Part shown: positions 6,680 to 18,816 of the stretch, piece after piece | How the letters are laid out: each line of letters starts with the position of its first letter | Position numbering within the stretch: the first letter of the stretch is position 1 | Origin: a virus | Strand: one strand, 5' to 3' | Length of the DNA stretch: 31,840 nt | IMG/VR virus record: IMGVR_UViG_3300048110_000244 | Span: 1 to 31,840 of that record | The notes under the pieces: model-generated | What the model was told of the DNA's origin: nothing | Database searches by the model: none | What the model saw: only the letters and a program-made list of their open reading frames with translations | Made by a program: the position numbers and the translations under genes

Positions 6680-6684
6680 ACAAA

Positions 6685-6837
6685 ATGAACGAAACACAAA
6701 TTAATGCAATGTTCCAATCACTACAGCAACAGAATCAGCAGTTATCTGGACAGTTAGCCGAAGCGCATGGTCAAATTGCTGTATTGCAGGAGCAGTTAAA
6801 AAGTCAAGATGAAAGTGATAAAGAAAGCCAAGACTGA
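6685..6837 (+). CDS. 50-aa Gln-rich coiled-coil protein
   Basis: A short frame of 50 codons starting at ATG 6685, five bases after the previous stop. The product begins MNETQINAMFQSLQQQNQQL and continues as a predicted helix with Leu/Ile at heptad spacing (LAEAHGQIAVLQEQLKSQ). It has 12 Gln in 50 residues and a polar acidic tail. The close packing between neighbours, with no competing frame, supports a real gene. It precedes the lysis block. The function is unknown; a small virion or lysis accessory is possible. Confidence 0.6.
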   Translation: MNETQINAMFQSLQQQNQQLSGQLAEAHGQIAVLQEQLKSQDESDKESQD

Positions 6838-6869
6838 TATAATTACACAAAAAGCATTCAGGTATTAAC

Positions 6870-7139: not shown

Positions 7140-7140
7140 C

Positions 7141-7548: not shown

Positions 7549-8270
7549 GTCTAAATAATCACTTAATTAAAATGCCTAATGGTTTACTAGGTGTAAGTGC
7601 TGGTATCTACCCTGATATTAAAGGTGTGCATTGTTTTGGTATTAACCCTGATATTGCTAACGGTTCAGTTCCAGAGTCTATCTGGTCAGTTGGTGGCGTA
7701 TACCCTTGGGATCAATTCGGTACTGGTGAGATACTTACCCTAGCATCGACCGCTAACGATACTGGTTATGTCACCATTGAGGGATTAGACGCTAATTATG
7801 ATCTACTTGTAGAAACGGTCACGTTAACTGGAATAACCCCAGTATTGACCTCTAATCAGTTCATGAGGGTTAATCGTGCGTACTATCTTAATGGTGATTA
7901 TAACGATGGTGATATATCAATCGAGATAGATTCTATACCAGTTGCCATGATTGACGCTGGAAAAGGTCACACCTTATCTACTAATTACACAGTGCCAGCA
8001 GGACATACCGCTTTCTTAGTAGCTGGTGATACATCGGTTAATAAGGGTCATGATGCTCAGGTAGAGTTTTATGTGCGTATGTTTGGTGGTTCTTTCATGA
8101 TCCAACACGTAGCAGAAGTATATGAGAACTCATACAGGTTTGATTTTCTTATACCGTTTAGAGTGCCTGAGAAATCCGACATAGATGTAAGAGTATCGAC
8201 AGTTGAGAATTCAGGTACACGAGTAACCGCAACTTATGACATGGTGTTAGATAAATGCTTGAATTACTAA
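7545..8270 (+). CDS. Virion structural-type protein, unknown role
   Basis: I chose ATG 7545 (241 residues) over the in-frame ATG two codons upstream because GGTGA at 7534 is then correctly spaced and the start overlaps the lysozyme stop as ATGA. The product contains GVHCFGINPDIANGS and ESIWSVGGVYPW, resembling a protein common in marine phages with the pattern 'FGxNPDI..G..E.IW..GG'. The rest is beta-rich with conserved small turns (NYTVPAGHTAFLVAGDTS). It is probably a virion surface or head/tail decoration protein. Its place between lysozyme and holin genes is unusual but holds together as one operon. Confidence 0.8.
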   Translation: MSLNNHLIKMPNGLLGVSAGIYPDIKGVHCFGINPDIANGSVPESIWSVGGVYPWDQFGTGEILTLASTANDTGYVTIEGLDANYDLLVETVTLTGITPVLTSNQFMRVNRAYYLNGDYNDGDISIEIDSIPVAMIDAGKGHTLSTNYTVPAGHTAFLVAGDTSVNKGHDAQVEFYVRMFGGSFMIQHVAEVYENSYRFDFLIPFRVPEKSDIDVRVSTVENSGTRVTATYDMVLDKCLNY

Positions 8271-8644
8271 TTAATCCTATTGCTAGTCTACTAGATAAAG
8301 TTATTCCTGATAAGGATCAACGTGATAAGTTAGCTCATGAAATAGCTACTATGTCACAGAAGCAGGGCTATGAGTTAGCTAAAGCACAGATAGCAGTAAA
8401 TCAGGTTGAAGCTGGTCATAGGTCTATATTTGTTGCTGGCTGGCGACCAGCGTTAGGTTGGGTGGGTGTTAGTGCTATTGCTTATAACTACGTCCTACTA
8501 CCACTTATTAACATCTATCTAATATCTAATAGCATGGATGTGTTAAGCCCAATGGATCTATCTGAACTCATGCCATTAATCTTGGGTATGTTGGGGCTAG
8601 GTGGGTACCGTACCTACGAGAAGAAAAAAGGAGTAGCTAAATGA
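8255..8644 (+). CDS. Holin, three-TM phage holin family
   Basis: A 129-residue protein. After a polar helical N-terminus (PDKDQRDKLAHEIATMSQKQ) come GHRSIFVAGWRPALGWVG and a hydrophobic stretch over residues 58-92, then a second over about 103-117 (ELMPLILGMLGLGG) and a basic tail (YRTYEKKKGVAK). 'R-P/x-F-V-A-G-W-R-P' followed by a membrane domain is the signature of the 3TM/GTA-type holins. It should open the inner membrane for the lysozyme. It overlaps the upstream gene by 16 bases, and the small peptide gene starts in its stop codon. Confidence 0.9.
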   Translation: MLELLINPIASLLDKVIPDKDQRDKLAHEIATMSQKQGYELAKAQIAVNQVEAGHRSIFVAGWRPALGWVGVSAIAYNYVLLPLINIYLISNSMDVLSPMDLSELMPLILGMLGLGGYRTYEKKKGVAK

Positions 8645-8715
8645 TAATGCCTAAACGTGGTCAACGTACACAGACTAACCGCAAGAAGAAAAAAACTAGA
8701 CCTAAAAAGAAATAG
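8641..8715 (+). CDS. 24-aa highly basic peptide
   Basis: ATG 8641 overlaps the holin stop (ATGA) and follows AAAAGGAG at about 8626-8633, so it should be translated with the holin. The product is MIMPKRGQRTQTNRKKKKTR followed by PKKK. Half of its 24 residues are Lys or Arg. It is the last frame before the terminator at 8757. Possible roles are a nucleic-acid-binding peptide, a lysis regulator, or a remnant. The correct ribosome-site spacing and coupling favour a real gene, but nothing else supports it. Confidence 0.5.
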   Translation: MIMPKRGQRTQTNRKKKKTRPKKK

Positions 8716-8730
8716 TGATACAATAATTAT

Positions 8731-8785
8731 AACATTCTCTCCCAATGTTGTTAGTGAGCCTACCGTAACTGGTGGGCTTTTTTTT
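8731..8785 (+). terminator. Rho-independent terminator closing the late operon
   Basis: A stem AGCCTACC/GGTGGGCT (8757-8764 with 8771-8778, one G-U pair, 6-nt loop) is followed by eight T (8778-8785). A smaller hairpin AACATT/AATGTT (8731-8736 with 8744-8749) sits just before it. It lies between the holin operon and the metallophosphoesterase gene, so it should end the long structural and lysis transcript. Confidence 0.9.
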
Positions 8786-8806
8786 GCTTAAAATTTAAGC
8801 TAGAAT
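8786..8806 (+). promoter_or_regulatory. 15-bp palindrome next to a -10-like box
   Basis: GCTTAAAATTTAAGC (8786-8800) is a perfect inverted repeat with a one-base centre, placed directly after the terminator T-run. TAGAAT (8801-8806) follows immediately and would serve as a -10 box for the gene at 8838; the matching -35 position is only a T-run. The palindrome could be an operator or extend the terminator. Promoter strength is doubtful. Confidence 0.4.
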
Positions 8807-8837
8807 AGTGACTCCTAACTTGCATACTGGAGTATCT

Positions 8838-9923
8838 ATGCAATCATGCCCACATTGTAACGGGGTTAAACTCAGAAATGTAAAAGTACGCAGGTCTAAG
8901 CAACAGTTTCAATGCCTATCATGCGCTAAGTATTTTTCAGTTCCATTAGAAGCAAGCGCACCCACCCCAGACGGGTATCTAGTCAAAGGTCAATCTAAGT
9001 TATACGATGCAGATGGTAAGGTTAAACTTACGTGGGAAAAGACCGACCGCAACAAAGAGCAACAATTTGAGGCAATGAAGCAAGCTATTACAGAACTTGC
9101 TAAATCAATTACGCCTATTGATGAGATACCAGAGCCAGTATACCAACCTAGTGACTACGCTAATATTATTCCTATAGGTGATCCGCACGTAGGGATGTAC
9201 TCAGCATTTAATGAAGTAGGTGAGCAATACACGCTAGAGAAAGCTAAGAACTTATTTACTAGAGCTATGACTAAGGCTATGGATAAATGCCAGCCATGCG
9301 ATAACTGTTATATCATTAACGTAGGTGACTTTTTCCATTCTGACCTATCATCTAATCGTACAGCTAGAAGTGGAAACGCACTAGACGTAGATGGTCGATG
9401 GAATGAGATAGTAAAGGTCGGAGTTCACATAGTTAAGACGTGGGTTATATTAGCCCTAAAAAAGCACAAAACTGTACATATTGTGAATGCTATAGGCAAT
9501 CATGACGATCATTCGAGCCAATGGCTTAACATTGCAATAGATGCGTTATTTAGTGCTAATAAGCGTGTTATTGTGCATGATAACGCTAGCCAATTCCAAT
9601 ACTTCACATTCGGTAAAAACCTATTCGGAGTGACTCATGGCGACACAGCAAAAATGGCAGACCTCGGTGGCATCATGGCTACGGATGTTCCTGATTTATG
9701 GGGCGGTTCTGTTCACCGTTATTTTTACACTGGGCATGTACACCATGATCAGGTTAAAGAGTTTCGTGGCTACAAAGCTGAGTCATTTCGTACCCTAGCT
9801 GGTAAAGACGCATGGCATCACGCAAGCGGTTACAGGTCAGATAGAGACATTAAAGTCATAGTTTTACACAAGGATCATGGTGAAGTAGAGAGATTTACTT
9901 TCAATATTTCACAATTTAATTAA
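8838..9923 (+). CDS. Calcineurin-like metallophosphoesterase with N-terminal zinc ribbon
   Basis: A 361-residue protein from ATG 8838. GGAG at 8829 favours this start over the in-frame GTG 8808. Residues 4-29 form a zinc ribbon (CPHC...CLSC). A 'GYLVKGxSxLYDxDGK' segment at 47-61 is shared by many phage phosphoesterases. The catalytic domain has the standard metal-binding blocks: GDPHVG (114-119), GDFFH (163-167), GNHDD (220-224), THGD (266-269) and GHVHH (299-303). It should hydrolyse phosphodiester or phosphomonoester bonds with two metal ions, perhaps on nucleic acid given the zinc ribbon. It is separated from the recombination genes by a promoter. The substrate is unknown; Mre11/SbcD-like nuclease activity is possible. 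Confidence 0.9.
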   Translation: MQSCPHCNGVKLRNVKVRRSKQQFQCLSCAKYFSVPLEASAPTPDGYLVKGQSKLYDADGKVKLTWEKTDRNKEQQFEAMKQAITELAKSITPIDEIPEPVYQPSDYANIIPIGDPHVGMYSAFNEVGEQYTLEKAKNLFTRAMTKAMDKCQPCDNCYIINVGDFFHSDLSSNRTARSGNALDVDGRWNEIVKVGVHIVKTWVILALKKHKTVHIVNAIGNHDDHSSQWLNIAIDALFSANKRVIVHDNASQFQYFTFGKNLFGVTHGDTAKMADLGGIMATDVPDLWGGSVHRYFYTGHVHHDQVKEFRGYKAESFRTLAGKDAWHHASGYRSDRDIKVIVLHKDHGEVERFTFNISQFN

Positions 9924-9931
9924 CTTTTTTG

Positions 9932-9960
9932 TTTACATTACTTATCCTTTTAGTTAATAT
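9932..9960 (+). promoter_or_regulatory. Sigma70-type promoter of the recombination operon
   Basis: TTTACA (9932-9937), a 17-base spacer and TAATAT (9955-9960) give a good sigma70 promoter 28 bases before the ERF start. TTAACTTTTTTGTT just upstream (9920-9933) recurs almost exactly at 16278-16291, and the leader GAGGAGAATGTCATGA (9978-9993) nearly matches the leader at 16343. The spacer lacks the TAWCG-N6-CGTTA operator found in the promoters at 14038 and 16302. Confidence 0.8.
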
Positions 9961-9988
9961 TCATATTGACAACTAAGAGGAGAATGTC

Positions 9989-10594
9989 ATGAAACAATCA
10001 GAAACAATTATAGAGCTATCTAAGGCGATGGCTAAAGCTCAGGATGAAATGGGTGGTGCAGTTAAAAACTCTAACAACCCATTTTTTAAGTCTAGCTATG
10101 CTGACCTTACCAGTGTAATCAAGGCAATCAAAGAGCCGTTTGCAAATAACGGTCTATCCTTTGTTCAATTCCCTATCAGCGCACCAGACCATATAGGTAT
10201 AACTACTAGACTTATGCACGAGTCTGGCGAGTGGCTAGAGAGTGAATGCTTTCTACCATTAACCAAAGCAGACCCCCAGTCCTGCGGTAGCATTTTGACG
10301 TACTGTCGTAGGTACGCTTTATCAGCCATGTGTGGAATTCCTGCAGTCGATGATGATGCAGAAATGGCTATGGTACGTGGTAAGTCTTATATTAGTGAGC
10401 GTCAATACGATGAGTTACTAGATCTAATTGAGCAGTCCAACACTGACCTAGACAAGTTCCGCAAAGCATTCGCTATTGAGTCATTAGGTGACATGGAGAC
10501 AGGTCACTTCACTAAAGCCAAATCAATGCTTAAGCGTAAAATTGAGCAAGCCAACGTAAAAGCAGAGACGGAGAAAGACAATGCAAGTGATTAA
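9989..10594 (+). CDS. erf: ERF-family single-strand annealing protein
   Basis: A 201-residue recombinase mediator. The ERF signature is clear: LSKAMAKAQDEMGGAVKNS near the N-terminus, NPFFKSSYADLTSV at about 29-42, ITTRLMHESGEWLES, DPQSCGSILTYCRRYALSAM and DDDAEMA. It anneals complementary strands and acts with the YqaJ exonuclease coded next, which it overlaps by 14 bases. AGAGGAG at 9976 sets the start. The basic/acidic C-terminus (KRKIEQANVKAETEKDNASD) may contact partners. It heads the operon behind its own promoter. Such pairs repair breaks and generate concatemers for packaging. Confidence 0.95.
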   Translation: MKQSETIIELSKAMAKAQDEMGGAVKNSNNPFFKSSYADLTSVIKAIKEPFANNGLSFVQFPISAPDHIGITTRLMHESGEWLESECFLPLTKADPQSCGSILTYCRRYALSAMCGIPAVDDDAEMAMVRGKSYISERQYDELLDLIEQSNTDLDKFRKAFAIESLGDMETGHFTKAKSMLKRKIEQANVKAETEKDNASD

Positions 10595-11180
10595 TGTCGA
10601 GCAGGGTTCTGAGGAGTGGCTTAAAGCACGTCTAGGAGTGCCTACAGCGTCATGCTATGCCAAACTAATAACAACACAAGGCAAGCGAAGCGCACAGGCA
10701 GAGAGTTACATTAACGAGCTTATAGGTCAGCGTATCACTGGTGAGATACCAGAGACATTTAAGAGTGAAGCTATGGAGCGTGGCAACGAGCTAGAGCCAC
10801 AAGCCAGAGCATACTATGAGCTGATGACTGATAACGATGTTGAGGAAGTAGGATTAATACTTAACGATATTGGTGCTGGATGTAGTCCTGATGGGCTAAT
10901 AGGCGAACATGGTGGCTTAGAGATAAAATGCCCTAAGTTATCTACGCATATCGGTTATTTGCGCAATGGTAAGCTACCTACAGCGTATATACAGCAAGTG
11001 CAGGGGTGTATGTATATTACTGGGCGTAAGTGGTGGGATTTTATGAGCTTTCACCCTGACACTGAGAGCTTAATAATACGCATTGAACGCAACGAGACTT
11101 TTATCAGTGCGCTAGATGCAATACTTAAAGAAACAATCAATACAATTAACTTAGAATCAGAAAACTGGAGAAAGAAATGA
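10581..11180 (+). CDS. YqaJ-family (lambda exonuclease-like) recombination nuclease
   Basis: A 199-residue protein with the YqaJ/PD-(D/E)xK core: GSEEWLKARLG (9-19), MERGNELEPQA with Glu70, CSPDG with Asp104, LEIKCP with Glu114 and Lys116, and QQVQ with Gln141. It should resect double-strand ends 5' to 3' to give single strands for the ERF protein coded upstream. It overlaps both neighbours by a few bases, fitting a co-translated exonuclease/annealase/SSB set. All expected catalytic residues are present. Confidence 0.93.
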   Translation: MQVINVEQGSEEWLKARLGVPTASCYAKLITTQGKRSAQAESYINELIGQRITGEIPETFKSEAMERGNELEPQARAYYELMTDNDVEEVGLILNDIGAGCSPDGLIGEHGGLEIKCPKLSTHIGYLRNGKLPTAYIQQVQGCMYITGRKWWDFMSFHPDTESLIIRIERNETFISALDAILKETINTINLESENWRKK

Positions 11181-11440
11181 GCCAATACGATAACACAAAC
11201 ACAGGCGCACTATTTATTAACGACCGTAGACAGAATGAGAACCAGCCTAATGCTAAAGGTTCTGTAGATATTGATGGTGTTGAATACTGGGTGAGTGCAT
11301 GGACTAAGACAAGTAAGAGCGGTCAAAAGTTTCAGTCATTAGCGTTTACTCGTAAAGAGCAACAACAAGCACCAGCACGACCAGCACCAACTACACCAGC
11401 TTTTAACCCTGATGTAATTGACGACGATCTACCATTTTAA
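11177..11440 (+). CDS. Small SSB-like protein with DDDLPF C-terminal tip
   Basis: An 87-residue protein. The N-terminal 60 residues look like a short OB-type beta domain (TGALFINDRR, GSVDIDGVEYWVSAWTKTSK, QKFQSLAFTRK), followed by a Pro/Ala/Gln linker and a terminal DVIDDDLPF. Acidic residues ending in DDxPF are the hallmark of bacterial SSB tails, which recruit host repair and replication proteins. It overlaps the exonuclease gene by 4 bases. About half the length of normal SSB, it may be a minimal phage SSB or a decoy for SSB partners. A terminator follows directly. Confidence 0.8.
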   Translation: MSQYDNTNTGALFINDRRQNENQPNAKGSVDIDGVEYWVSAWTKTSKSGQKFQSLAFTRKEQQQAPARPAPTTPAFNPDVIDDDLPF

Positions 11441-11443
11441 TCT

Positions 11444-11465
11444 AGGGGGCTATATGCCCCTTTTT
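11444..11465 (+). terminator. Intra-operon terminator/attenuator
   Basis: GGGGC/GCCCC (11446-11450 with 11456-11460, loop TATAT), extended by weaker A/G pairs into the T-run, is followed by TTTTT at 11461-11465. It lies between the mini-SSB and Cro-like genes with no clear promoter after it, so it probably lowers rather than abolishes downstream expression. Confidence 0.8.
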
Positions 11466-11478
11466 ACTGGAGTACATT

Positions 11479-11673
11479 ATGAACATTGGAAAATCATTAA
11501 GGCGATTACAGAGAGAGTTACGCATAAGTAACAGAGAACTAGCAGATCATTTAGACGTTAAAGAGCCACAAATAAGCAAGTGGCGTAACAGCGAGGACAT
11601 GAAAGCTAGTACAGTGGTATCTATCGCTAACTACATGGGAGTATCAGTCCTTGAACTTCTACAAGATCAATAG
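11479..11673 (+). CDS. Cro/C1-type (XRE) helix-turn-helix regulator
   Basis: A 64-residue protein that is almost entirely one HTH domain: LRRLQRELRISNRELADHLD, then VKEPQISKWRNSEDMKAS and VVSIANYMGVSVLELL. GGAG at 11469 fits the start. It should bind DNA as a dimer and is a candidate for the TAWCG-N6-CGTTA sites at 14045 and 16310, although this is inference. No divergent repressor gene partners it, unlike a lysogeny switch. Its last 23 bases overlap the NinB-like gene. Confidence 0.88.
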   Translation: MNIGKSLRRLQRELRISNRELADHLDVKEPQISKWRNSEDMKASTVVSIANYMGVSVLELLQDQ

Positions 11674-12124
11674 CAGAGATAAGGTTAAACAGGTATTAGA
11701 TTACCTAGCTAAAAACCTTATTGAGAACTGGGATTTTACCAACCCAGTACAGATAGAATATAAGCCTTATAGTAATAAGCTAACTAAAAGTCAACGCTCA
11801 CTAATGCACATCTGGTTTAGAGATATCGCATCTGAGTATAAAAGACGTGGTTTCACCTATGAGAATGAGCATGGTGAACAGGTTTACATGACTGAGAAGT
11901 GTGTAAAGCTAATGCTTAAACATAAGTTCTTAGGTGTTAGAGATATTCGACAGGGTAAGCTGGTTATTAAAGATCAGCTAGTTAGCACTGAGGATCTGAG
12001 TGTAGGTGAGGAAAGTCATTTTCTCGATGAGATCTATAGCTGGGCTTATGATCATGGGGTACAATTAAAGATACCTGAGCATAGTGATTACATGAAATAT
12101 AAGAGGTCACAAAATGGCTACTAA
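11651..12124 (+). CDS. ninB: NinB-like recombination protein, TTG start
   Basis: A 157-residue protein. The best start is TTG 11651, preceded by GGGAG at 11637-11641 and nested in the end of the Cro-like gene; no ATG or GTG near the N-terminus keeps the conserved NFYKINSRDKVKQVL opening. NLTKSQRSLMHIWFRDIASE-like helices (here KLTKSQRSLMHIWFRDIASE) resemble the NinB/lambda Orf family, whose members load annealing proteins at SSB-coated single strands. It is followed by NinG, as in lambdoid phages. The family assignment rests on layout and the N-terminal motif and is moderately sure. Confidence 0.7.
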   Translation: MNFYKINSRDKVKQVLDYLAKNLIENWDFTNPVQIEYKPYSNKLTKSQRSLMHIWFRDIASEYKRRGFTYENEHGEQVYMTEKCVKLMLKHKFLGVRDIRQGKLVIKDQLVSTEDLSVGEESHFLDEIYSWAYDHGVQLKIPEHSDYMKYKRSQNGY

Positions 12125-12533
12125 AACCAAAACCTTAGCAAAAGTGCTAGATGATACCGCTGTATTAATGCAGAAGTACGTAAGGCTAAAAGACTTTGTA
12201 TCTAACGGTGGTTATTGTAAGTGTATTACGTGTGGTAAAACTGGACACTGGAAAGAGTTTGACGGTGGACACTTTATTAGTCGCACGTATACGATCCACA
12301 AGATACTAGAGGAAAACATACACCCACAGTGTAAAGGGTGTAATAGGTTTGGTCACAAGTGCCATGATGATTACTCTATGTATATGATTGATACGTATGG
12401 TGAGGACTTTGTGCGTGAGCTGATTGATACTAAGCGAATAAGTATTAAAAGAGATAGGCAGGAGTTACTTGCTACTCAAAAAGACTTAAAGCAGAAGATT
12501 AAGGATCTTGAGAATGAAGTACCAACTTATTAG
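12114..12533 (+). CDS. ninG: NinG/Rap-like recombination endonuclease
   Basis: A 139-residue protein with the NinG zinc/HNH-like core: CKCITCGKTGHWKEFDGGHF, SRTYTIHKILEENIHPQC and KGCNRFGHKCHDDY. Four or more Cys and the GGHF...HPQC block match the Rap Holliday/D-loop junction nuclease family. The C-terminus is a charged coiled coil (RQELLATQKDLKQKIKDLENE). It should cut recombination intermediates made by the ERF/YqaJ set. It overlaps the previous gene by 11 bases and the next by 20. Confidence 0.9.
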   Translation: MATKTKTLAKVLDDTAVLMQKYVRLKDFVSNGGYCKCITCGKTGHWKEFDGGHFISRTYTIHKILEENIHPQCKGCNRFGHKCHDDYSMYMIDTYGEDFVRELIDTKRISIKRDRQELLATQKDLKQKIKDLENEVPTY

Positions 12534-12678
12534 ATGCACCTTAGAGCAAGGTGATTATCACGAGACTCTAGTCATGTCTTACAAGGACGCTAAGGAAGCT
12601 ATGCGAGACAAGATACAAGAGGAAAAAGATGAACTAGATCCATTGTCATGGTGGACTGTAGAACTGGAAGAAGAATGA
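12514..12678 (+). CDS. 54-aa acidic protein of unknown function
   Basis: Starts at ATG 12514 inside the end of ninG, with the purine-rich AAGGATCTTGAGA upstream, and ends at TGA 12678, which overlaps the dUTPase start. The product starts MKYQLIRCTLEQGDYHETLV and ends WWTVELEEE. A short beta-strand, a charged helix (SYKDAKEAMRDKIQEEKDEL) and a Trp pair are visible. It fills the only gap between two overlapping genes, which supports it being real. I do not recognise the family. Confidence 0.65.
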   Translation: MKYQLIRCTLEQGDYHETLVMSYKDAKEAMRDKIQEEKDELDPLSWWTVELEEE

Positions 12679-13097
12679 AGATTAAGAAAATACACAGCCA
12701 AGCCAAAACACCTACACGTGGATCATACGACAGCGCAGGAAATGACCTATACTCAGTACAACACGCTATCATTCCACCACACAGATCAGCCAAGTTAGGT
12801 ACTGGATTATGTATGGAAATGGAAAAAGGTACAGTAGGTTTAATCTGGGAACGCTCAAAACTAGCTAGTAAGTTTGGTCTACAAGTTATGGGTGGCGTAG
12901 TAGATTGTGACTATCGAGGTGAAGTCATGATATCACTATACAATAACTCAGACACACCTTACGAGGTTAAAGTAGGTGATCGTATGGCTCAGATTATATT
13001 TCAGCAATACATAGATTATGACTTTGAAGATGTGGAGCAACTAAACGACACACCTAGAGGAACTAACGGTATTAACTCAACTGAGAACAGACTATGA
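12675..13097 (+). CDS. dut: Trimeric dUTPase
   Basis: A 140-residue enzyme that hydrolyses dUTP to dUMP and pyrophosphate, keeping uracil out of phage DNA and supplying dUMP for thymidylate. ATG 12675 overlaps the upstream stop (ATGA) and has GGAAGAAG in place. The five motifs are recognisable: SAGNDLYS, WERSKLASKFG, GGVVDCDYRGE, GDRMAQIIF and RGTNGINSTE. Motifs II and V are divergent: Lys in place of Gly in RSGLA, and Ile in place of the usual uracil-stacking Phe. It may therefore have altered kinetics. Low uracil also matters if the phage modifies pyrimidines. Confidence 0.92.
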   Translation: MKIKKIHSQAKTPTRGSYDSAGNDLYSVQHAIIPPHRSAKLGTGLCMEMEKGTVGLIWERSKLASKFGLQVMGGVVDCDYRGEVMISLYNNSDTPYEVKVGDRMAQIIFQQYIDYDFEDVEQLNDTPRGTNGINSTENRL

Positions 13098-13357
13098 CAG
13101 ACTACCGCAGAGATGAACCAATTAAGCCTATCACTCACAAGTACCTTAAACCTATTAAGGGTAAGATAGTACCAGAAGATGATCACATGTTATTTGTTGA
13201 CGTGTACGATGTGCTAAAAGCATTCGATGTAGTATGTCCAGCCATGCAACACGCAATCAAGAAAATGCTATGTAGTGGACAGCGTGGAGTAAAAGACAGT
13301 ATCAGAGATAAGCGTGAAGCTATCGACAGTATCAATAGAAGTATTGAGCTAGAATAA
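13094..13357 (+). CDS. Conserved phage protein, unknown function (DVYDVLKAF...AIKKMLCSGQRG)
   Basis: An 87-residue protein overlapping dut by four bases (ATGA). The core FVDVYDVLKAFDVVCPAMQH, then AIKKMLCSGQRGVKD and DKREAIDSINRSIELE, recalls a small protein present in many phages near replication or recombination genes, whose role is not known to me. It looks alpha-helical and soluble with a basic centre. It ends the operon: the hairpin at 13362 follows five bases after its stop. Confidence 0.8.
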   Translation: MTDYRRDEPIKPITHKYLKPIKGKIVPEDDHMLFVDVYDVLKAFDVVCPAMQHAIKKMLCSGQRGVKDSIRDKREAIDSINRSIELE

Positions 13358-13455
13358 GAAAAGCCCACCTATCACAGTGGGCTATCATCTATTTCATCGT
13401 GAGCTACCAACCCAGTTAGCTAGTCCTTGCATGTAAACCGCCAACCGTTACGACA
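13354..13455 (-). ncRNA. Predicted minus-strand small RNA A (about 100 nt)
   Basis: A minus-strand promoter (TTGATA-N16-TATACT, 13488-13461) is followed about 100 bases later by a hairpin and minus-strand T-run (13383-13354). No sizeable frame lies between. The RNA would hold an internal 12-codon frame (13432-13394, MQGLANWVGSSR) with only a weak GGCGG upstream, so it is more likely noncoding. Ends are estimated from promoter and terminator positions. No expression evidence is available; the call rests on the promoter/terminator pairing repeated in unit B. Confidence 0.5.
13358..13383. terminator. Bidirectional hairpin; better terminator on the minus strand
   Basis: AGCCCAC (13362-13368) pairs with GTGGGCT (13377-13383) over an 8-nt loop. 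On the + strand the tail is ATCATCTATTT, a poor T-run, and it would end the dut operon weakly. On the minus strand the tail reads TTTTCTTATT, a better terminator, and would end the predicted small RNA started by the promoter at 13488-13461. Confidence 0.75.
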
Positions 13456-13460
13456 AAGCT

Positions 13461-13488
13461 AGTATACCTACCTACACCAATCTATCAA
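13461..13488 (-). promoter_or_regulatory. Minus-strand promoter A
   Basis: Read on the minus strand: TTGATA (13488-13483), 16-base spacer, TATACT (13466-13461). Each box has one mismatch to the sigma70 consensus. It fires leftward, against all protein genes in the window. The spacer end GTAGGTAGG resembles promoter B at 13670-13643, which has the same -10 box and spacing. Confidence 0.6.
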
Positions 13489-13499
13489 TAGCCAGACAT

Positions 13500-13523
13500 A
13501 AAAAAAGCCCAATTAAGGGCTTT
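13500..13523 (-). terminator. Minus-strand rho-independent terminator B
   Basis: AAAGCCC (13504-13510) pairs perfectly with GGGCTTT (13517-13523) over loop AATTAA. On the minus strand the hairpin is followed by seven T (13506-13500), a canonical terminator. On the + strand the tail is only TTTCTCT. The better minus-strand tail argues for leftward transcription here. Confidence 0.8.
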
Positions 13524-13535
13524 CTCTATTAACAC

Positions 13536-13564
13536 TTTACAATCACAGGACAGAGTTGTATAGT
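13536..13564 (+). promoter_or_regulatory. Plus-strand promoter facing small RNA B
   Basis: TTTACA (13536-13541), 17-base spacer, TATAGT (13559-13564). The -35 box equals those of the phage promoters at 9932 and 14038. Transcription would start near 13571, exactly where GTTAGC (13571-13576) begins a fold closed by GCTAAC (13631-13636). The RNA would be antisense to RNA B over about 65 nt. No + terminator is obvious before the gene at 14097. Confidence 0.55.
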
Positions 13565-13591
13565 TAGGTTGTTAGCTGGATTGCAGTCCAG

Positions 13592-13683
13592 TATAACTAT
13601 AGGGATAAGTCAGGACTAAAGTCATACTTTGCTAACCAGTTTAGTATACCGACATACCTAATTATTTCAAGTCTATAGTTATA
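13592..13683. repeat. 11-bp perfect inverted repeat TATAACTATAG / CTATAGTTATA
   Basis: The arms are 13592-13602 and 13673-13683, enclosing 70 bases that contain the minus-strand promoter B and the pair ACTAAA/TTTAGT (13615-13620 with 13640-13645). The long stem competes with GTTAGC/GCTAAC (13571-13576 with 13631-13636), so two exclusive folds are possible. Confidence 0.7.
13643..13670 (-). promoter_or_regulatory. Minus-strand promoter B
   Basis: On the minus strand TTGAAA (13670-13665), 16-base spacer, TATACT (13648-13643), one mismatch per box. It has the same -10 box and spacing as promoter A, with a similar GG directly before TATACT. It should drive the RNA ending at 13500. Confidence 0.6.
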
Positions 13684-14037
13684 TTACGCATTCCACTATC
13701 CTAGTCGAGCCTAGTTAAATCGTGGTGTCTCATTGTGCACCTGCTCACAAAAGCAAGAACAAACATACGACCTTTGAGGGCGGGATAAACAGCGTTTCGG
13801 ATAGCGTACTACTTAGGTAGTCATAGAGGGTGGTTTTACTAGCCATTGCCAGCGGATTGGTTAAATAGTTGCTGATTACTGTATGTTTGGGGAAAACTTA
13901 TAACACTATAAACGTGTATCACACCATAGAGGTTATCCAATAGCCCTCTAAATGACCACTATTGTCTAAAAAAAGTCACATCAAATCCCATTACCCGTAG
14001 CTATCGGGATTAATTAATAAAAAAGTTAAATAAATAC
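13684..14037. other. Protein-free region with nested inverted repeats
   Basis: No credible frame lies here. A 9-bp perfect inverted repeat, CAAACATAC (13760-13768) and GTATGTTTG (13881-13889), closes a 112-base segment with inner hairpins ACTAC/GTAGT (13808-13812 with 13817-13821) and CAGC/GCTG near 13849 and 13871. Further pairs are TAGAGG/CCTCTA (13927-13932 with 13945-13950) and AATCCC/GGGATT (13984-13989 with 14006-14011). No convincing promoter was found for the 13760-13889 fold on either strand. It could be a structured RNA, a leader of the 14097 operon, or a replication origin. Confidence 0.5.
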
Positions 14038-14066
14038 TTTACATTAACGAAATACCGTTATATGAT
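14038..14066 (+). promoter_or_regulatory. Promoter with TAACG-N6-CGTTA operator, small-gene operon
   Basis: TTTACA (14038-14043), 17-base spacer, TATGAT (14061-14066). The spacer holds a perfect inverted repeat TAACG (14045-14049) and CGTTA (14056-14060), placed so that a bound dimer would cover the promoter. A close relative, TATCGGAATATCGTTA, sits in the promoter at 16302 (13 of 16 positions equal). A phage HTH protein is the likely ligand. Confidence 0.8.
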
Positions 14067-14096
14067 GTAATCACACTAACAAAGGGGTTACAAAAA

Positions 14097-14300
14097 ATGA
14101 ATACACGTACTGAATTATTAAACGCTTTAAATAATGACTTAATGGCTTGTGGTGGTATGAGTCCAGATCAAATAATTGAGAAAGCTGATGCTATGTTCCA
14201 TGACTATTATTGTGTTGATATTGACCATGATAAGCAAACATCTGATCACTACAAAAGATTTGTAGGTGTAATAATGGTTGAAAATTTAATGTGCGCTTAG
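14097..14300 (+). CDS. 67-aa protein of unknown function, first gene of the small-gene operon
   Basis: ATG 14097 follows AAAGGGG at 14081-14087 and the promoter at 14038. The soluble product has a helical N-terminus (MNTRTELLNALNNDLMACGG), an acidic middle (CVDIDHDKQTSDHYKR) and a hydrophobic end (FVGVIMVENLMCA). I recognise no domain. A short hairpin overlaps its stop codon, suggesting that it is made in excess over the genes behind it. Early, strongly expressed, small: an anti-host role is possible but only inferred. Confidence 0.75.
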   Translation: MNTRTELLNALNNDLMACGGMSPDQIIEKADAMFHDYYCVDIDHDKQTSDHYKRFVGVIMVENLMCA

Positions 14301-14310
14301 TCGCACTTTT
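14291..14310 (+). terminator. Weak terminator across the stop codon of the 14097 gene
   Basis: GTGCG (14291-14295) pairs with CGCAC (14302-14306) over loop CTTAGT, followed by TTTT (14307-14310). Five pairs and four T make a partial terminator or an mRNA 3'-end stabiliser; the next ribosome site (GGGAG, 14311) follows at once. Confidence 0.5.
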
Positions 14311-14322
14311 GGGAGAATGAAA

Positions 14323-14610
14323 ATGATTATATTACAACGTAACAATATCGAGATACTAAAGCACGTTGACCTAGATGGTCGTCATGTATACACAGTGCGT
14401 GAGCTTAACGGTGATGATTGCTTTATAGATGAGTTCTACACGTTAGAAGATGCTATTGAGTTTATCGCAGTAATGCCTAACGGTTTTGACTTACGAGCTG
14501 AAAAGCTAAAGGCTAAAAGTGATAACCCTACATTCCTAGAGGTTGGATTAATTATGCTAGTAGGTTGTGGTATGGGTATGATGTTTATCAACTGGTTGGG
14601 CTTGTTATGA
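14323..14610 (+). CDS. Small protein with C-terminal transmembrane segment
   Basis: I chose ATG 14323 (95 residues) over ATG 14317 because GGGAG at 14311-14315 lies seven bases before it but only one before the other. Residues 1-72 are soluble and mixed alpha/beta (VDLDGRHVYTVRELNGDDCF, FYTLEDAIEFI); residues 73-95 form one membrane helix (VGLIMLVGCGMGMMFINWLGLL) at the very end. This is a tail-anchored topology with the bulk in the cytoplasm. The next gene starts in its stop codon. The function is unknown. Confidence 0.75.
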   Translation: MIILQRNNIEILKHVDLDGRHVYTVRELNGDDCFIDEFYTLEDAIEFIAVMPNGFDLRAEKLKAKSDNPTFLEVGLIMLVGCGMGMMFINWLGLL

Positions 14611-14816
14611 CAGCACAAGAAAGGTTACAGTTCATATTGTCAGATCGTGGTATGAACATAAGAACAATGTCTAGCTTATCAGAGCTACCTTATACGACAG
14701 TATACGATTACATCAAGAACGGTAACGAGCCTAGTTACAAGAATTTTAATAAGATAGTAGAAGCAACTGGTTACACCATACAAATTAACGACACTGGAGA
14801 GAGTGGTGAAAATTGA
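14607..14816 (+). CDS. Small HTH protein (69 aa)
   Basis: ATG 14607 overlaps the upstream stop (ATGA), so the longer frame from 14565 is not used. The product has an HTH core: MNIRTMSSLSELPYTTVYDY followed by IKNGNEPSYKNFNKIVEATGY. Its C-terminal pattern (FNKIVEATGYTIQI) matches the small HTH protein at 15534 (LNDIVEACGYKITI), so the two are probably paralogues. It should bind DNA; the target may be one of the operators at 14045 or 16310. There is no effector domain. Confidence 0.8.
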   Translation: MTAQERLQFILSDRGMNIRTMSSLSELPYTTVYDYIKNGNEPSYKNFNKIVEATGYTIQINDTGESGEN

Positions 14817-15051
14817 GATAAGCACAGAGGAGCTGGTAGCAAATGTAAGCGCACATGATGTACTTAACTACATGGACGAATACGAGCTATCCACATTAGT
14901 AAGAGATTACTTAAATAAGAATTTGCTTGAAGCAAGCCAAAAGCAAGGGGTACAAGGATTGGTTAATTTACTAATCAATCATGCTGATGAGATAAAAACT
15001 ACATGCCCACAAGATGACATTAACGCACTAATAAAAGCACTGGGAGAATAA
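14806..15051 (+). CDS. 81-aa helical protein of unknown function, GTG start
   Basis: The start is likely GTG 14806, six bases after GGAG (14796-14799) and inside the end of the HTH gene; GTG 14803 is also possible. The product is acidic and almost fully helical (ELVANVSAHDVLNYMDEYEL, LVRDYLNKNLLEASQKQ). The N-terminal 'HDVLNYMDEYELSTLVRDYL' style is seen in other small phage proteins of unknown role. It has no Cys cluster or membrane segment. Confidence 0.7.
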   Translation: MKIEISTEELVANVSAHDVLNYMDEYELSTLVRDYLNKNLLEASQKQGVQGLVNLLINHADEIKTTCPQDDINALIKALGE

Positions 15052-15052
15052 C

Positions 15053-15304
15053 ATGACAATTACTAGAAAACGCTGGACTGATGAAGAAGTATCTAAGCTG
15101 GTTTATATGAACGGTAAAGGGTACTCAAAAGACCTGATAGCACATGAGTTAGGTAGAACCAAAATAGCGGTAGCAGTTAAGCTATCAAACCTGAAAAAGA
15201 CAGCAGTTAATTACGATTCAGAAGAAATGCAGAGAGGTGATTTAATATTACCAGCAGTATGTATTACCTTAATGATCGTCTTAGCGGTGGTGAGCGCATT
15301 ATGA
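15053..15304 (+). CDS. Myb/SANT-like DNA-binding domain with C-terminal membrane helix
   Basis: An 83-residue protein. Residues 5-50 show a Myb/GcrA-like HTH: RKRWTDEEVSKLVYMNGKGY, DLIAHELGRT, AVAVKLSNL. Residues 63-83 are a hydrophobic helix ending the protein (LILPAVCITLMIVLAVVSAL). A DNA-binding domain joined to a C-terminal membrane anchor would tether DNA, or a host promoter, to the inner membrane. The TM-coding end overlaps the next start by four bases (ATGA), and the frame is clean. The dual architecture is read from sequence; the function is unknown. Confidence 0.75.
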   Translation: MTITRKRWTDEEVSKLVYMNGKGYSKDLIAHELGRTKIAVAVKLSNLKKTAVNYDSEEMQRGDLILPAVCITLMIVLAVVSAL

Positions 15305-15537
15305 TACATGAAACCATTACCCTAGAATGTGAAGCGTTTGGATATTTAGATTTAGACGTATCATACGAGGAAGTTACAGAAGATAATAGCTTTGATCATG
15401 AGTTCGGTACTGAGAAACGAGTAGACCAATACGCTGTAATCTATGAAGTCAAGTTCAACGGTCAACCTATCAGGTTAACTAAGGTTCAGCACAGAGAGCT
15501 AGAGGACTTTATAACTGAGAACTTGGTGACAGCATGA
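15301..15537 (+). CDS. 78-aa beta-rich phage protein, unknown function
   Basis: ATG 15301 overlaps the upstream stop and has GGTGAG at 15289-15294; the longer frame from 15259 would run deep into the neighbour. The product shows alternating strands (ITLECEAFGYLDLDVSYEEV, YAVIYEVKFNGQPIRLT) and a C-terminal helix (KVQHRELEDFITENLVTA). It is acidic and soluble. I recognise no family. The next gene starts in its stop (ATGA). Confidence 0.75.
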   Translation: MIHETITLECEAFGYLDLDVSYEEVTEDNSFDHEFGTEKRVDQYAVIYEVKFNGQPIRLTKVQHRELEDFITENLVTA

Positions 15538-15725
15538 ATACCAGATACGTATTTAATAAGGTAATAGGTCACATGCAAGTTAAGGAGCTATCCAAAATAA
15601 CTGGCTATCATGAGAACACGTTGCACCAGTGGAAAAGTGGCAAGTCAGAAACTAGCATCATGTGCCTGAATGACATTGTAGAAGCATGTGGCTATAAGAT
15701 AACGATTGAGAGAAAAAATGGATAA
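15534..15725 (+). CDS. Small HTH protein (63 aa), paralogue of the 14607 product
   Basis: It consists of one HTH domain: VIGHMQVKELSKITGYHENT, LHQWKSGKSETSIMCLNDIV, EACGYKITIERKNG. 'KELSKITGYHENTLHQWKSGKS' has the spacing of helices 2-3 of XRE regulators. The 'L/F-N-D/K-I-V-E-A-x-G-Y' end is shared with the product of 14607. Two related HTH proteins 0.9 kb apart suggest duplication and different operator preferences. It overlaps the upstream gene by four bases. Confidence 0.8.
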   Translation: MNTRYVFNKVIGHMQVKELSKITGYHENTLHQWKSGKSETSIMCLNDIVEACGYKITIERKNG

Positions 15726-16011
15726 TCATTATAAATTTAGAAAGGGCAGGATAAGCCTAGAGCGAGTAGTTAACGCTATGGATGGTATTAAGATGATAGA
15801 TTCGGTAAGGCGTGGCATTATAGAGTATTTTGTAGAGGGTAAGACAGTTAAGGAGACTAAGGTTAATTCATCCCTACTAATGCCATATCTTAGAGAGGTT
15901 AATACTAATATCACCATAGATAATCTATACGTGAGAAAGTTCTTATATACAGATGAATTTAGTCCAAGAGGAAAGCAAAATGACAGTAATAGATCACTTT
16001 TTACAAGTTAA
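15718..16011 (+). CDS. 97-aa basic protein, possible HTH
   Basis: ATG 15718 overlaps the previous stop by eight bases and has GAGAG upstream; TTG 15706 is less likely. The product is basic (NHYKFRKGRISLERVVNAMD). Its middle, RRGIIEYFVEGKTVKETKVN followed by SSLLMPYLREV, could be an HTH in which GKTVKETKVNSSLLMPYLREV provides helices 2-3. It may be another DNA-binding protein of this operon, but I am not sure. Its last 32 bases overlap the next gene. Confidence 0.7.
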   Translation: MDNHYKFRKGRISLERVVNAMDGIKMIDSVRRGIIEYFVEGKTVKETKVNSSLLMPYLREVNTNITIDNLYVRKFLYTDEFSPRGKQNDSNRSLFTS

Positions 16012-16132
16012 GCACAAAGAATTAAAAGAAGAACTCAAGCAAGCTAAGATCACAATGGAATTATGTTATGCCATGCTCATGGGATCGGTACTACTTAATG
16101 TGGTTTTAGTATGGAGATTGTTCAGTGGCTGA
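15980..16132 (+). CDS. 50-aa micro-membrane protein
   Basis: ATG 15980 follows AAGAGGAAAG, a strong ribosome site. The product has a charged N-terminal helix (HKELKEELKQAKITMEL) and a single membrane helix (CYAMLMGSVLLNVVLVWRLF), ending at FSG. It lies between two tightly overlapped genes. Small single-TM phage proteins of early operons often act on host membrane complexes, but no target can be read from the sequence. Confidence 0.65.
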   Translation: MTVIDHFLQVKHKELKEELKQAKITMELCYAMLMGSVLLNVVLVWRLFSG

Positions 16133-16274
16133 TAACTATTTACCTAAGTTTTTCACACCTAGCAGAACTAAACACAAGCGCAAGATTACACCAAAACAAG
16201 AAAAACAAGCAGAAGCTAGGCGTAAGATTGAATTATTAAGATATGAGCAAGAGTTGAAAAAGCTAGAAGAATAA
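16125..16274 (+). CDS. 49-aa basic helical protein, GTG start
   Basis: GTG 16125 follows GGAG at 16113-16116 by eight bases and sits in the end of the previous frame. The product begins MADNYLPKFFTPSRTKHKRK and continues as a charged helix (PKQEKQAEARRKIELLRYEQ, ELKKLEE). It is rich in Lys, Arg and Glu. It ends the operon four bases before the TTAACTTTTTT element upstream of the next promoter. The function is unknown; RNA or DNA contact is possible. Confidence 0.6.
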   Translation: MADNYLPKFFTPSRTKHKRKITPKQEKQAEARRKIELLRYEQELKKLEE

Positions 16275-16301
16275 TAATTTAACTTTTTTGTTAATTAATG
16301 C

Positions 16302-16330
16302 TTTACTTATATCGGAATATCGTTAATAAT
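16302..16330 (+). promoter_or_regulatory. Promoter with TATCG-N6-CGTTA operator, replication operon
   Basis: TTTACT (16302-16307) and TAATAAT (-10, 16324-16330) at 16-17-base spacing. TATCG (16310-16314) and CGTTA (16321-16325) form the same operator-like inverted repeat as in the promoter at 14038. An upstream TTAACTTTTTTGTT (16278-16291) matches that of the promoter at 9932. It should drive genes from 16356 through at least the TET/JBP-like gene. Confidence 0.75.
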
Positions 16331-16355
16331 GCATTCACTAACCGAGGAGAATGAC

Positions 16356-16667
16356 ATGATAGTAAATACAATTAGCACAGCAAACCAATTTATCGAACAA
16401 TTCAAAGATTGCGGTAGAGGTAATCAATTTAGCTACGATGGTTTTGTAGCATTGTTTGATTACCTTGATATGCTTTCAGATGATCAACCTATTGAACTTG
16501 ATGTTATTGGTATTTGTTGTGAGTTCAGCGAATATCATATAGATGTTTTACGTGACTATTACGACATGCTTGAGGGTTTAAATGATCAAGAAGTCGTAGA
16601 CAAATTAGAATATTACACAGTGGTTATACCAGTTGATAAAAGTACGTACATAATTGCTGATTTTTAA
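16356..16667 (+). CDS. Conserved phage protein, unknown function (NQFSYDGFVALFDYL)
   Basis: ATG 16356 (103 residues) is chosen over ATG 16329, which lies in the -10 region of the promoter; GAGGAG at 16343 is correctly placed. The product, with ANQFIEQFKDCGRGNQFSYD and DVIGICCEFSEYH, recalls a small protein found in many phages of proteobacteria near replication genes. It is acidic and soluble. The function is unknown. Its leader is a near copy of the ERF leader at 9978, so the two operons may share expression control. Confidence 0.85.
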   Translation: MIVNTISTANQFIEQFKDCGRGNQFSYDGFVALFDYLDMLSDDQPIELDVIGICCEFSEYHIDVLRDYYDMLEGLNDQEVVDKLEYYTVVIPVDKSTYIIADF

Positions 16668-16690
16668 CATATTGTTTTTGGGAGAGAATG

Positions 16691-16903
16691 ATGAAATTAA
16701 GATTTACAAATAAAGTTCCAGAATCATTGGAAGATTATGTGATTTTTACATACTTGTATAAGTGGGAGAATTCTGTTTTTAGCACTTCTACATTACTTAA
16801 ATATGATGAGCGCAATTTATATCGAAAAGAGCTTGAGTGGATTTACGGAAGTGACCTAGTTGATACTTTCCATAATGAAGTTCAAATGTGGGAGCTAGAT
16901 TAA
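16691..16903 (+). CDS. 70-aa protein of unknown function
   Basis: Two adjacent ATG codons (16688, 16691); the second is six bases after GGAG (16681-16684) and is preferred. The product is rich in aromatic residues (YVIFTYLYKWENSVF, ELEWIYGSDLVDTFHNEVQM) with mixed charge. It lies 23 bases after the previous stop and 17 before the helicase start, in the same operon. I recognise no family. Confidence 0.75.
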   Translation: MKLRFTNKVPESLEDYVIFTYLYKWENSVFSTSTLLKYDERNLYRKELEWIYGSDLVDTFHNEVQMWELD

Positions 16904-16920
16904 ATTCTGGGGAGAAAATC

Positions 16921-18387
16921 ATGGAACTTAGACCACATCAAGAGCGTGCTATAAGTATGCTAAGGCAATCACTAGCCAAAGGATATAAAAGACCAATATT
17001 AGGGGCGTGTTGCTCATTTGGTAAGACTATTACAGCATTGTATATACTTACGGAAGCCAGCAAAAAAGGCAAGAAGTGCATATTCTTTTGCGACAGGGTA
17101 AAGCTAGTACAGCAAGCTATCAACGCATTTAGAAGTAATGGGATTGAGGTAGGTGTGATAATGAGTGATCACGAGCTGAGAAACCCAGATGCCATGATAC
17201 AGATAGCTAGTATTCAATCAGTAGCTAGAATGCGTAGAAAACCTGAATTTGACCTTGCCATAGTTGACGAATGCCATACTCACTATAGGACGACACAGGA
17301 ATTGATGGATCGCTACAGTAATGTGCCGTTCATTGGTTTGTCAGCAACACCTTATAGCAAAGGTCTAGGCAAGGCTTATAATGATCTGGTCGTACCAGTT
17401 ACTACTAGGCAATTATTAGATCAGGGTTATCTATGCCCAGTTAAGTATTATGGCGGTGCTACAGCTAACGTATCAGGCTTAAAGACTAAGAGATTACCAA
17501 CAGGTGCTAAGGACTATGATCCAAAAGAGTTAGAACGTGCCATAGATGAGGAAAGCGAGTATCTCACTGGTGATATAATTCTAAACTACACTAAGTTAGC
17601 GTATAACAGACCAGCAATAGCATTTAGTCCTAGCGTAAAGCATAGTAAGTATCTGGTTGACCAGTTTAATAAAGCTGGTATCCCAGCAGTACACATAGAC
17701 GGGTACATGAAAGAGAATGAGAGACAGGATATCTACAAAGGTCATGAGAGAGGTGACTTTAAGATCCTTAGTTGTTCAATGCTACTAGGCACTGGGTACG
17801 ATGCACCCCATATCTCATGCTTGATTGACTGCTATCCAAGCCAAAGTAAAATACAATTCGTACAAAGAGCAGGGCGCATAATGCGCTTACATGAGAGTAA
17901 GACAGACGCAATATACTTAGACCATGCTGGTAATATTGCTAGGCATGGATTCCCAGAGGACATAGTGCCTGACTCATTAGATGATGGTGAGAAACCATAT
18001 AACGAGAACAATCAGATCAAGGAAAAGAAAGAGTCTAAGGCTAAAGATTGCCCTCAGTGTTTTGGTATTATGGTTGGTATACGTTGCGCATGTGGGTATG
18101 AGATACCTATAATGGAGCAGATAAAGACCACAGAAGAAGAATTAACCTTATTGAAGAAACCTAGTGATTACCAAGATAATCACAAGAAAGTATTCTTAGG
18201 TGGGTTAGAGTTATATGCACAGGAGAAAGGATTCAAAGCAGGATGGGTAGCACACAGCTATAAGAAGAAATTCGGTGAGTATCCACAGGTTACACCAGCC
18301 AAGGTGAAAGAGATCCACCCGACAGTAAAAGGATACATAAAGCACTTGGAAATAAGACAAGCAAAGGGTAGACAGTATGCTAGATAA
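16921..18387 (+). CDS. Superfamily 2 DNA helicase with C-terminal zinc finger
   Basis: A 488-residue protein from ATG 16921 (GGGGAG upstream; the frame extends to 16888 without a ribosome site). Motifs: Q-like LRPHQERA (3-10), Walker A GACCSFGKT (28-36), DECH (116-119), SATPYSKG (141-148) and motif VI QRAGRIMR (315-322). A four-Cys site, CPQC...CAC (377-391), follows, then a helical tail. It is a UvrW/Ssl2-like or replicative SF2 helicase acting on DNA. The primase-like gene begins inside its end, pointing to a replication function. In Walker A, Ser-Phe precede GKT instead of the usual Gly-x. Confidence 0.92.
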   Translation: MELRPHQERAISMLRQSLAKGYKRPILGACCSFGKTITALYILTEASKKGKKCIFFCDRVKLVQQAINAFRSNGIEVGVIMSDHELRNPDAMIQIASIQSVARMRRKPEFDLAIVDECHTHYRTTQELMDRYSNVPFIGLSATPYSKGLGKAYNDLVVPVTTRQLLDQGYLCPVKYYGGATANVSGLKTKRLPTGAKDYDPKELERAIDEESEYLTGDIILNYTKLAYNRPAIAFSPSVKHSKYLVDQFNKAGIPAVHIDGYMKENERQDIYKGHERGDFKILSCSMLLGTGYDAPHISCLIDCYPSQSKIQFVQRAGRIMRLHESKTDAIYLDHAGNIARHGFPEDIVPDSLDDGEKPYNENNQIKEKKESKAKDCPQCFGIMVGIRCACGYEIPIMEQIKTTEEELTLLKKPSDYQDNHKKVFLGGLELYAQEKGFKAGWVAHSYKKKFGEYPQVTPAKVKEIHPTVKGYIKHLEIRQAKGRQYAR

Positions 18388-18790
18388 CATATTGAATTCA
18401 TTAGATAAAGTCAGAAAAGTAAAGGGTAGGTCTTACACAGCGTTATGCCCAGTACACAAAGACACTAAGCCAAGCATGACTATTACAGAGACTAACAGGG
18501 GTGATGTGTTGATACATTGTTTCTCGTGCGGTGCGAAAGGCACAGATGTAGTTAGAGCATTAGGGCTACCAGTAAGTGAGCTATTCATTGACGAGCTAAA
18601 GGTAGATAAGAGTAGACCATATTACCCTAAAGAACAGATGAACAAAGATAAGCACGTCATAGAGATATACAACAACACACCAGAGGACGATCTGAGCTAC
18701 TTTGACAAGAAACTGTACATACAATGCAAGGCTAGATTCGACAACTTTAACCAAAAGATGCAGGATTGGATAGGTGATGATATACTATAA
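18377..18790 (+). CDS. Stand-alone primase-type zinc-finger (CHC2) protein
   Basis: A 137-residue protein with the DnaG zinc-binding fold: ALCPVHKDTKPSM and VLIHCFSCGAKGTDVVRALG give ligands Cys24, His27, Cys48 and Cys51. The RNA polymerase (Toprim) domain and a helicase domain are both absent; after residue 75 only a charged helical region remains. Such a protein could choose initiation sites for the host primase or for the SF2 helicase coded in the overlapping gene. It is short compared with phage primases (300 residues or more). No frameshift or remnant of the missing domain follows within the 26-base gap. Confidence 0.88.
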   Translation: MLDNILNSLDKVRKVKGRSYTALCPVHKDTKPSMTITETNRGDVLIHCFSCGAKGTDVVRALGLPVSELFIDELKVDKSRPYYPKEQMNKDKHVIEIYNNTPEDDLSYFDKKLYIQCKARFDNFNQKMQDWIGDDIL

Positions 18791-18816
18791 CAACCTAACA
18801 TGAGGGTTAACATGGT

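Follow-up and report, generated by a model that had tools for sequence, protein, structure and literature searches.

The window analysed here, an IMG/VR virus record of 31,840 bases, represents a marine-type phage genome in which a short structured minus-strand RNA (hereafter unit B) appears to be the antisense partner of the 5' end of a long, pseudoknotted plus-strand RNA, and the same layout recurs in three sequence-unrelated clades of relatives. This antisense pair is well supported, with expression and pairing inferred from sequence alone. The best reading of these observations, to which we assign a probability of roughly 0.5, is a ColE1-like antisense control of a replication RNA by unit B, the role in replication being inferred.

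All genes of this phage lie on the plus strand and encode phage structural and lysis proteins, recombination functions (Erf, RecE-like, SSB, NinB and NinG), dUTPase, a helicase, a CHC2 zinc finger protein, a ParB-like protein, terminase and portal; a search for tRNA and tmRNA genes found none. A gene for a Tet/JBP-type 2-oxoglutarate oxygenase adjoins the ParB-like gene just before the terminase gene (19412-20245 and 18817-19419), which suggests DNA base modification in this phage. The RNA genes occupy a noncoding gap of about 740 bp (13358-14096) that is flanked by a conserved gene for an 87-aa protein and by the early/replication cluster. The following features are located downstream of the RNA genes:

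14038-14066, plus strand: separate promoter-like site TTTACA-N17-TATGAT ahead of the gene at 14097
16888-18387, plus strand: helicase gene of the ResIII/DEAD type, which accompanies the RNA module across the relatives
18377-18790, plus strand: CHC2 primase zinc-finger protein

The presence of the promoter-like site at 14038-14066 implies that the next operon may not depend on a promoter at 13536 (see below).

On the minus strand of the gap, the original prediction had placed two tandem small RNA genes, and the coordinates it gave for the promoters and terminators of both units held exactly:

13461-13488, minus strand: unit A promoter TTGATA-N16-TATACT, identified by promoter scan
13354-13454, minus strand: unit A RNA of ~100 nt, a three-way junction (paired region 13394-13456) with the loop UACAUGCAAG, followed by the terminator
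13362-13383, minus strand: unit A terminator stem
13643-13670, minus strand: unit B promoter TTGAAA-N16-TATACT, the best minus-strand promoter at the corresponding place in most relatives
13500-13637, minus strand: unit B RNA of ~138 nt, which runs antisense to the start of the plus RNA; its ends are inferred from promoter and terminator
13571-13636, minus strand: unit B three-way junction, with P1 GUUAGC/GCUAAC, P2 AGUAUGACU/AGUUAUACU and the P3 hairpin GGACUGCAAUCC
13500-13523, minus strand: unit B terminator, a stem at 13504-13523 followed by seven T, T-rich on the plus strand as well

Both promoters are sigma70-like, each with a 10/12 match. Promoter matches by themselves show no excess over shuffled sequence (30 observed and 40.5 expected at 8000-20000). 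If a unit is required to combine a sigma70-like promoter of 10/12 or better with a GC-rich, T-tailed hairpin 50-160 nt further on, the whole window contains two units on the minus strand and none on the plus strand, the average in shuffles is 0.045 per strand, and none of 100 shuffles reaches two. The claim that these are the only candidates for leftward transcription is borne out in that they are the sole promoter-terminator combinations in 31.8 kb on either strand, and the RNA lengths initially given (~100 and 135-140 nt) agree with those derived from the boxes (~100 and ~138 nt). Both units fold as a three-way junction followed by a terminator, with z-scores relative to shuffled sequences of -2.6 for unit A and -4.2 for unit B, and compensatory changes in relatives preserve both folds. 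Loss of the boxes in close relatives, which would have refuted the prediction, is not observed, given that L003 (loci of relatives are denoted by L numbers) keeps both promoters and both terminators. The statement that the hairpin tails are T-rich only on the minus strand proved too strong: the hairpin at 13504-13523 is T-rich on the plus strand too, where its tail is TTTCTCTATT, and its counterparts in L044 and L111 carry a longer T run on that strand, so that this hairpin is best considered a bidirectional terminator. The reading as two tandem minus-strand small RNA genes is supported, with expression inferred in the absence of RNA-seq; by every available test short of RNA data, both genes are real as far as can be inferred from sequence alone. 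The importance of unit B is greater than originally stated and that of unit A is modest. What had been overlooked is a conserved plus-strand promoter, TTTACA-N17-TATAGT (13536-13564), located between the two minus-strand promoters, and the interpretation lacked the convergent, structured plus-strand RNA with which unit B forms a pair; this pair is the widely conserved system.

Unit A appears to be a real, rarer structured RNA of the same build as unit B. Its range is narrower than that of the unit B pair and comprises the window, L002, L003 (97% and 73% identical to the window over this region, respectively) and divergent forms in L004, L108 and L149 (L149 and L107 are loci of one contig). Besides both -10 boxes and both terminators, L003 retains the 16-nt promoter spacing of unit A, where a 6-nt deletion in the spacer is offset by a new -35 hexamer, TTGAAT. 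All 30 predicted pairs of unit A (100%) are kept between the window and L003, with four pairs changed on both sides and five changed to or from G-U on the minus strand. The divergent homologues contain TATACT, a hairpin with the AUGCAAGG loop, TAGATG and a terminator; they came from a looser pattern scan in which most other matches were due to chance, an initial scan with a wrong spacer length having yielded none. Unit A pairs with neither unit B nor the plus RNA beyond the level expected by chance, and gene starts were only ranked, without comparison to shuffles. The target of unit A, perhaps a second regulator, was not found.

The partner of unit B is defined by the following plus-strand features:

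13536-13564, plus strand: convergent promoter TTTACA-N17-TATAGT, with a transcript expected from ~13571; found at the corresponding place in relatives of three clades
13571-13985, plus strand: long noncoding RNA (RNA II-like), ends inferred and 3' limit not established
13700-13976, plus strand: conserved multi-pseudoknot body, based on covariation and the G-U count
13724-13728/13737-13741, plus strand: body helix H1
13733-13736/13753-13756, plus strand: body pseudoknot PK1
13761-13768/13881-13888, plus strand: body helix H2
13790-13794/13870-13874, plus strand: body helix H3
13799-13806/13931-13938, plus strand: body helix H4
~13777-13781/13943-13949, plus strand: body helix H5 (GAGGGC/GCCCUC in the window)

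The folded 5' part of unit B and the first ~65 nt of the plus RNA are exact complements; at the sequence level, the two RNAs converge, and the short one shows full complementarity where the long one begins. A promoter scan of the 240 nt upstream of the plus-RNA body, or of its clade 3 counterpart, in 26 loci places the best sigma70-like promoter of each strand at corresponding positions in most of them, with the two promoters facing each other. The -10 boxes lie 71-78 nt apart in the window clade, as compared to 89-95 nt in the second clade (L059, L042, L032 and others) and 77-79 nt in the third clade (L037, L038, L058 and L067), and the sequences between the boxes show no resemblance from clade to clade. 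Promoter strength is modest in several of the 26 loci, individual sites often having p > 0.1, and in a few members (e.g., L070, L051, L072 and L031) the top minus-strand match lies elsewhere; the argument from convergent promoters accordingly rests on position and spacing, not on strength. For the window, both promoters, the unit B terminator and the complementarity are shown.

The stretch between the -10 boxes folds as a three-way junction, and in the minus-strand reading of this overlap G-U pairs exceed A-C mismatches by 14:1, 30:5 and 15:0 in clades 1-3, which indicates that the minus-strand fold is the selected one. Covariation in unit B of the window clade is 0.574 compared to 0.291 in shuffles (0/500), and that of the overlap in the second clade is 0.209 compared to 0.104; several members of the second clade also have a T run on the minus strand directly after the closing stem. 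Unit B is kept, with covariation, in further relatives from the window clade (L007, L028, L044, L108 and L111), the most divergent of which, L028, has weak promoters. Thus, the antisense RNA has a structure that is selected in its own orientation, and given that both the layout and the minus-strand fold recur across three clades, unit B is the window's version of a conserved antisense RNA.

Distant relatives retrieved via the helicase protein have DNA in common with the window in only two stretches, 13704-13796 and 13934-13976, and a profile built from these identifies 32 loci at about E 1e-39 or better. The aligned body comprises H1, PK1, H2, H3 and H4 together with a hairpin; pairing is present in 93.4% of its 662 cells, and the covariation is 0.570, compared to 0.170 +/- 0.015 in shuffles (0/500) and to at most 0.138 when the alignment is slid. 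H5 changes in step in L003, L111 and others; it was left out of the formal covariation count because automatic extraction of the 3' strand was wrong in several sequences, so that its 80% pairing figure is unreliable, and the few wrongly extracted cells are included in the G-U/A-C total. PK1 pairs the H1 loop with the sequence 3' of H1, H2 crosses both H4 and H5, and H3 crosses H4; thus, the plus RNA is a multi-pseudoknot. The 92 G-U pairs against 17 A-C mismatches on the plus strand identify this strand as the functional one for the body. RNAalifold does not separate the strands of the plus element (-43.4 vs -42.8), being strand-blind in this case because it ignores pseudoknots. The strand-specific conserved folds of the two RNAs are shown by these counts. 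A search of Rfam at the gathering threshold gives no match in the window, and relaxing the cut-off to E 10 for 13300-14150 reveals nothing credible and no RNAI match; the body is a previously undescribed structured RNA. The plus RNA is not G-rich (GC skew of -0.03 at 13001-14000). The conserved 3' edge of the plus RNA (13943-13975 in the window) consists of CUAUUGYCU and then an A-rich run, which in many relatives holds GGAG and leads into a start codon; this edge recalls an RNA-to-DNA switch site and is too short for such a claim.

In all 50 helicase loci with at least 2.5 kb of upstream sequence, DNA profiles match the element 0-2.8 kb before the helicase gene; these loci include near-duplicates, and there is no formal test of the minus-strand promoter in body types 4 and 5. 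The linkage to the helicase is shown. The first genes downstream of the plus RNA belong to 11 unrelated groups, suggesting that this RNA is not the leader of one particular gene; in many relatives, a start codon directly follows the element. Further body types are found behind the same kind of 5' domain in L101 (3770-4310), L049 (5250-5790) and L062 (5065-5560), and because L101 and L049 join the clade 3 antisense domain to another body, the antisense domain and the body appear to be modular. A DNA search of cultured phages and plasmids for the element produced no credible match, and the same holds for an nhmmer search of the cultured relatives HTVC111P and DSL-LC06, which share the terminase. 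A scan of 84,980 cellular genomes with the core pattern identified 25 places, among which only L118 is a true homolog. In this case, the plus RNA (L118:2829-3048) lies among phage-like small genes in a 7.8-kb contig binned with an Anaerolineales MAG, and the contig is likely to be a viral fragment.

The RNA-bearing records have no match to polymerase A, polymerase B or RepL and none to DnaB over the cut-off (a helicase is present, and the records may be incomplete). In L004, which contains the 87-aa gene and unit A (5515-5605), a family A DNA polymerase gene (5654-7492) replaces unit B and the plus RNA; this swap rests on one contig. In the cultured Vibrio phage 1.233.A, a RepL/HTH_36 protein directly precedes a distant homolog of the helicase (32% identical). 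Taken together, the polymerase in L004, the RepL-type gene in 1.233.A and the lack of such genes in the RNA-bearing records suggest that the RNA occupies the place of an initiation protein. A small upstream gene of similar appearance is present in HS5; the RepL model gave no match to it. In Pseudomonas phage PS-1 (L213:2888-3500), the region that separates cro from the helicase, at the position of lambda gene O, spans ~610 nt and has no annotated gene; this phage is a cultured candidate for an RNA-based origin.

Under the ColE1-like reading, host RNA polymerase would make the long plus RNA from the promoter at 13536-13564, and the part beyond the first ~65 nt would fold into the active pseudoknotted body that starts or licenses replication. 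The plus RNA would most likely stand in for a protein initiator of replication: close to the origin, it would serve as a primer or activator and act in concert with the phage helicase and the polymerases of the host. By pairing with the nascent plus RNA over its first ~65 nt, unit B would block the active fold of the body, and a rise of unit B with the number of genome copies would damp new initiation, a copy-dependent negative control; unit B would thus probably control when or how often the phage copies its DNA. Inhibition by pairing is inferred from the perfect complementarity and replication as the controlled step from context; priming is a guess. Several observations weigh against a replication role: copy control is of no evident use to a lytic phage; the start codon directly after the element in many relatives is compatible with an mRNA leader; the lack of G-richness in the plus RNA weakly disfavours a persistent RNA-DNA hybrid; there are no expression or replication data; the polymerase swap comes from a single contig; and the promoters are modest in several loci. 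A bolder reading, for which the odds seem to be slightly unfavourable, is that these RNAs constitute an undescribed replication module of tailed phages, in which an exchangeable pseudoknotted RNA would replace the initiator protein, a three-way-junction antisense RNA would set its activity, and the link to one helicase clade would be universal.

The main alternative, less likely but possible, is that the plus RNA forms a long structured leader to the early operon and exerts its effect on transcription or translation, e.g., as a processive antiterminator similar to the put RNA of HK022, a cis-acting phage RNA that suppresses termination (PMC9378689), with unit B as an antisense off-switch; replication would then be affected only via the early genes. 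The element does head the early/replication cluster, GGAG and ATG come right after its 3' end in many relatives, and indifference to the downstream gene fits a put-like antiterminator. However, the next gene in the window has its own promoter-like site (14038-14066), there are few plus-strand terminators downstream for an antiterminator to overcome, and the polymerase gene (L004) or RepL-type gene (1.233.A) at this site fits a part in replication better. It is unlikely that units A and B are mainly trans-acting small RNAs directed against host or phage messages, with an incidental overlap of unit B. This possibility draws support from unit A, a structured RNA with a promoter, a terminator, a conserved AUGCAAG loop and no partner in cis; also noted against it is that pairing of unit A with the plus RNA or unit B does not exceed chance. 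The convergent overlap of unit B is kept, with fixed promoter spacing, in three clades of unrelated sequence, and a chance overlap would not be expected to persist across them.

The possibility that the plus element functions at the DNA level, its structure being a DNA fold that serves, for instance, single-strand initiation or packaging, is remote. Origins and single-strand initiation sites can be structured, and a helicase and a primase zinc finger are encoded nearby; against this, the excess of G-U over A-C (92 vs 17) is expected for a plus-strand RNA, and the upstream promoter is kept. Finally, the view that the boxes are due to chance and the hairpins are ordinary bidirectional terminators of plus-strand operons is the most remote of these alternatives. 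Promoter counts alone do not exceed those in shuffles, and the hairpin at 13504-13523 is T-rich on the plus strand, more so in L044 and L111, but chance would hardly account for two promoter-terminator units against 0.045 per strand, the restoration of a -35 box after an indel, or compensatory changes on the minus-strand fold.

The similarity of the antisense pair to ColE1 consists in convergent overlapping promoters, two structured RNAs of which the short one is a perfect antisense match to the start of the long one, presumed control by RNA only, with no initiator protein found in the window system (in records that may be incomplete), and similar distances. In ColE1, transcription starts 555 bp (RNA II) and 445 bp (RNA I) upstream of the origin, and the two RNAs are perfectly complementary (PMC11012335); in the window, the corresponding starts lie ~405 and ~340 nt from where the conserved body ends. 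The window system differs in showing no sequence relation to ColE1 (no Rfam RNAI match up to E 10), in having a three-way junction as the antisense RNA instead of a row of stem-loops, in its multi-pseudoknotted plus RNA that is not G-rich and for which priming is only a guess, and in its location beside a phage helicase in tailed-phage genomes. RNA-based origins are described for the extrachromosomal mycobacterial prophages RedRock, Alma and LadyBird (PMC7157519). As proposed for the window, replication in these phages, which have no initiator gene for it, is believed to start from a transcribed region that does not code for protein (PMC7157519); however, these regions adjoin parABS in temperate actinobacteriophages, and the relevant sections of PMC7157519 mention neither an antisense partner nor a conserved fold. 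The put RNA of HK022 is likewise a structured RNA that heads early transcription independently of the gene behind it (PMC9378689), but no downstream terminator array is seen in the window. The put RNA is far shorter than the window plus RNA, and no antisense partner is known for it. Lambda OOP is, like unit B, a short, terminator-ended antisense RNA near replication genes; OOP targets a protein-coding message, and the inferred target of unit B is instead the 5' end of a noncoding pseudoknotted RNA.

Many environmental phages lack polymerase or initiator genes, and the way in which they begin DNA replication is unknown; this RNA pair, if the replication reading is true, may provide an answer. 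In that case, the ColE1 principle would extend into tailed phages beyond mycobacterial prophages, and the plus RNAs would represent a new family of large structured RNAs with several body types. The pair would then be a compact RNA switch for phage replication and might cause exclusion between related phages, such that those with the same antisense RNA would belong to the same incompatibility group.
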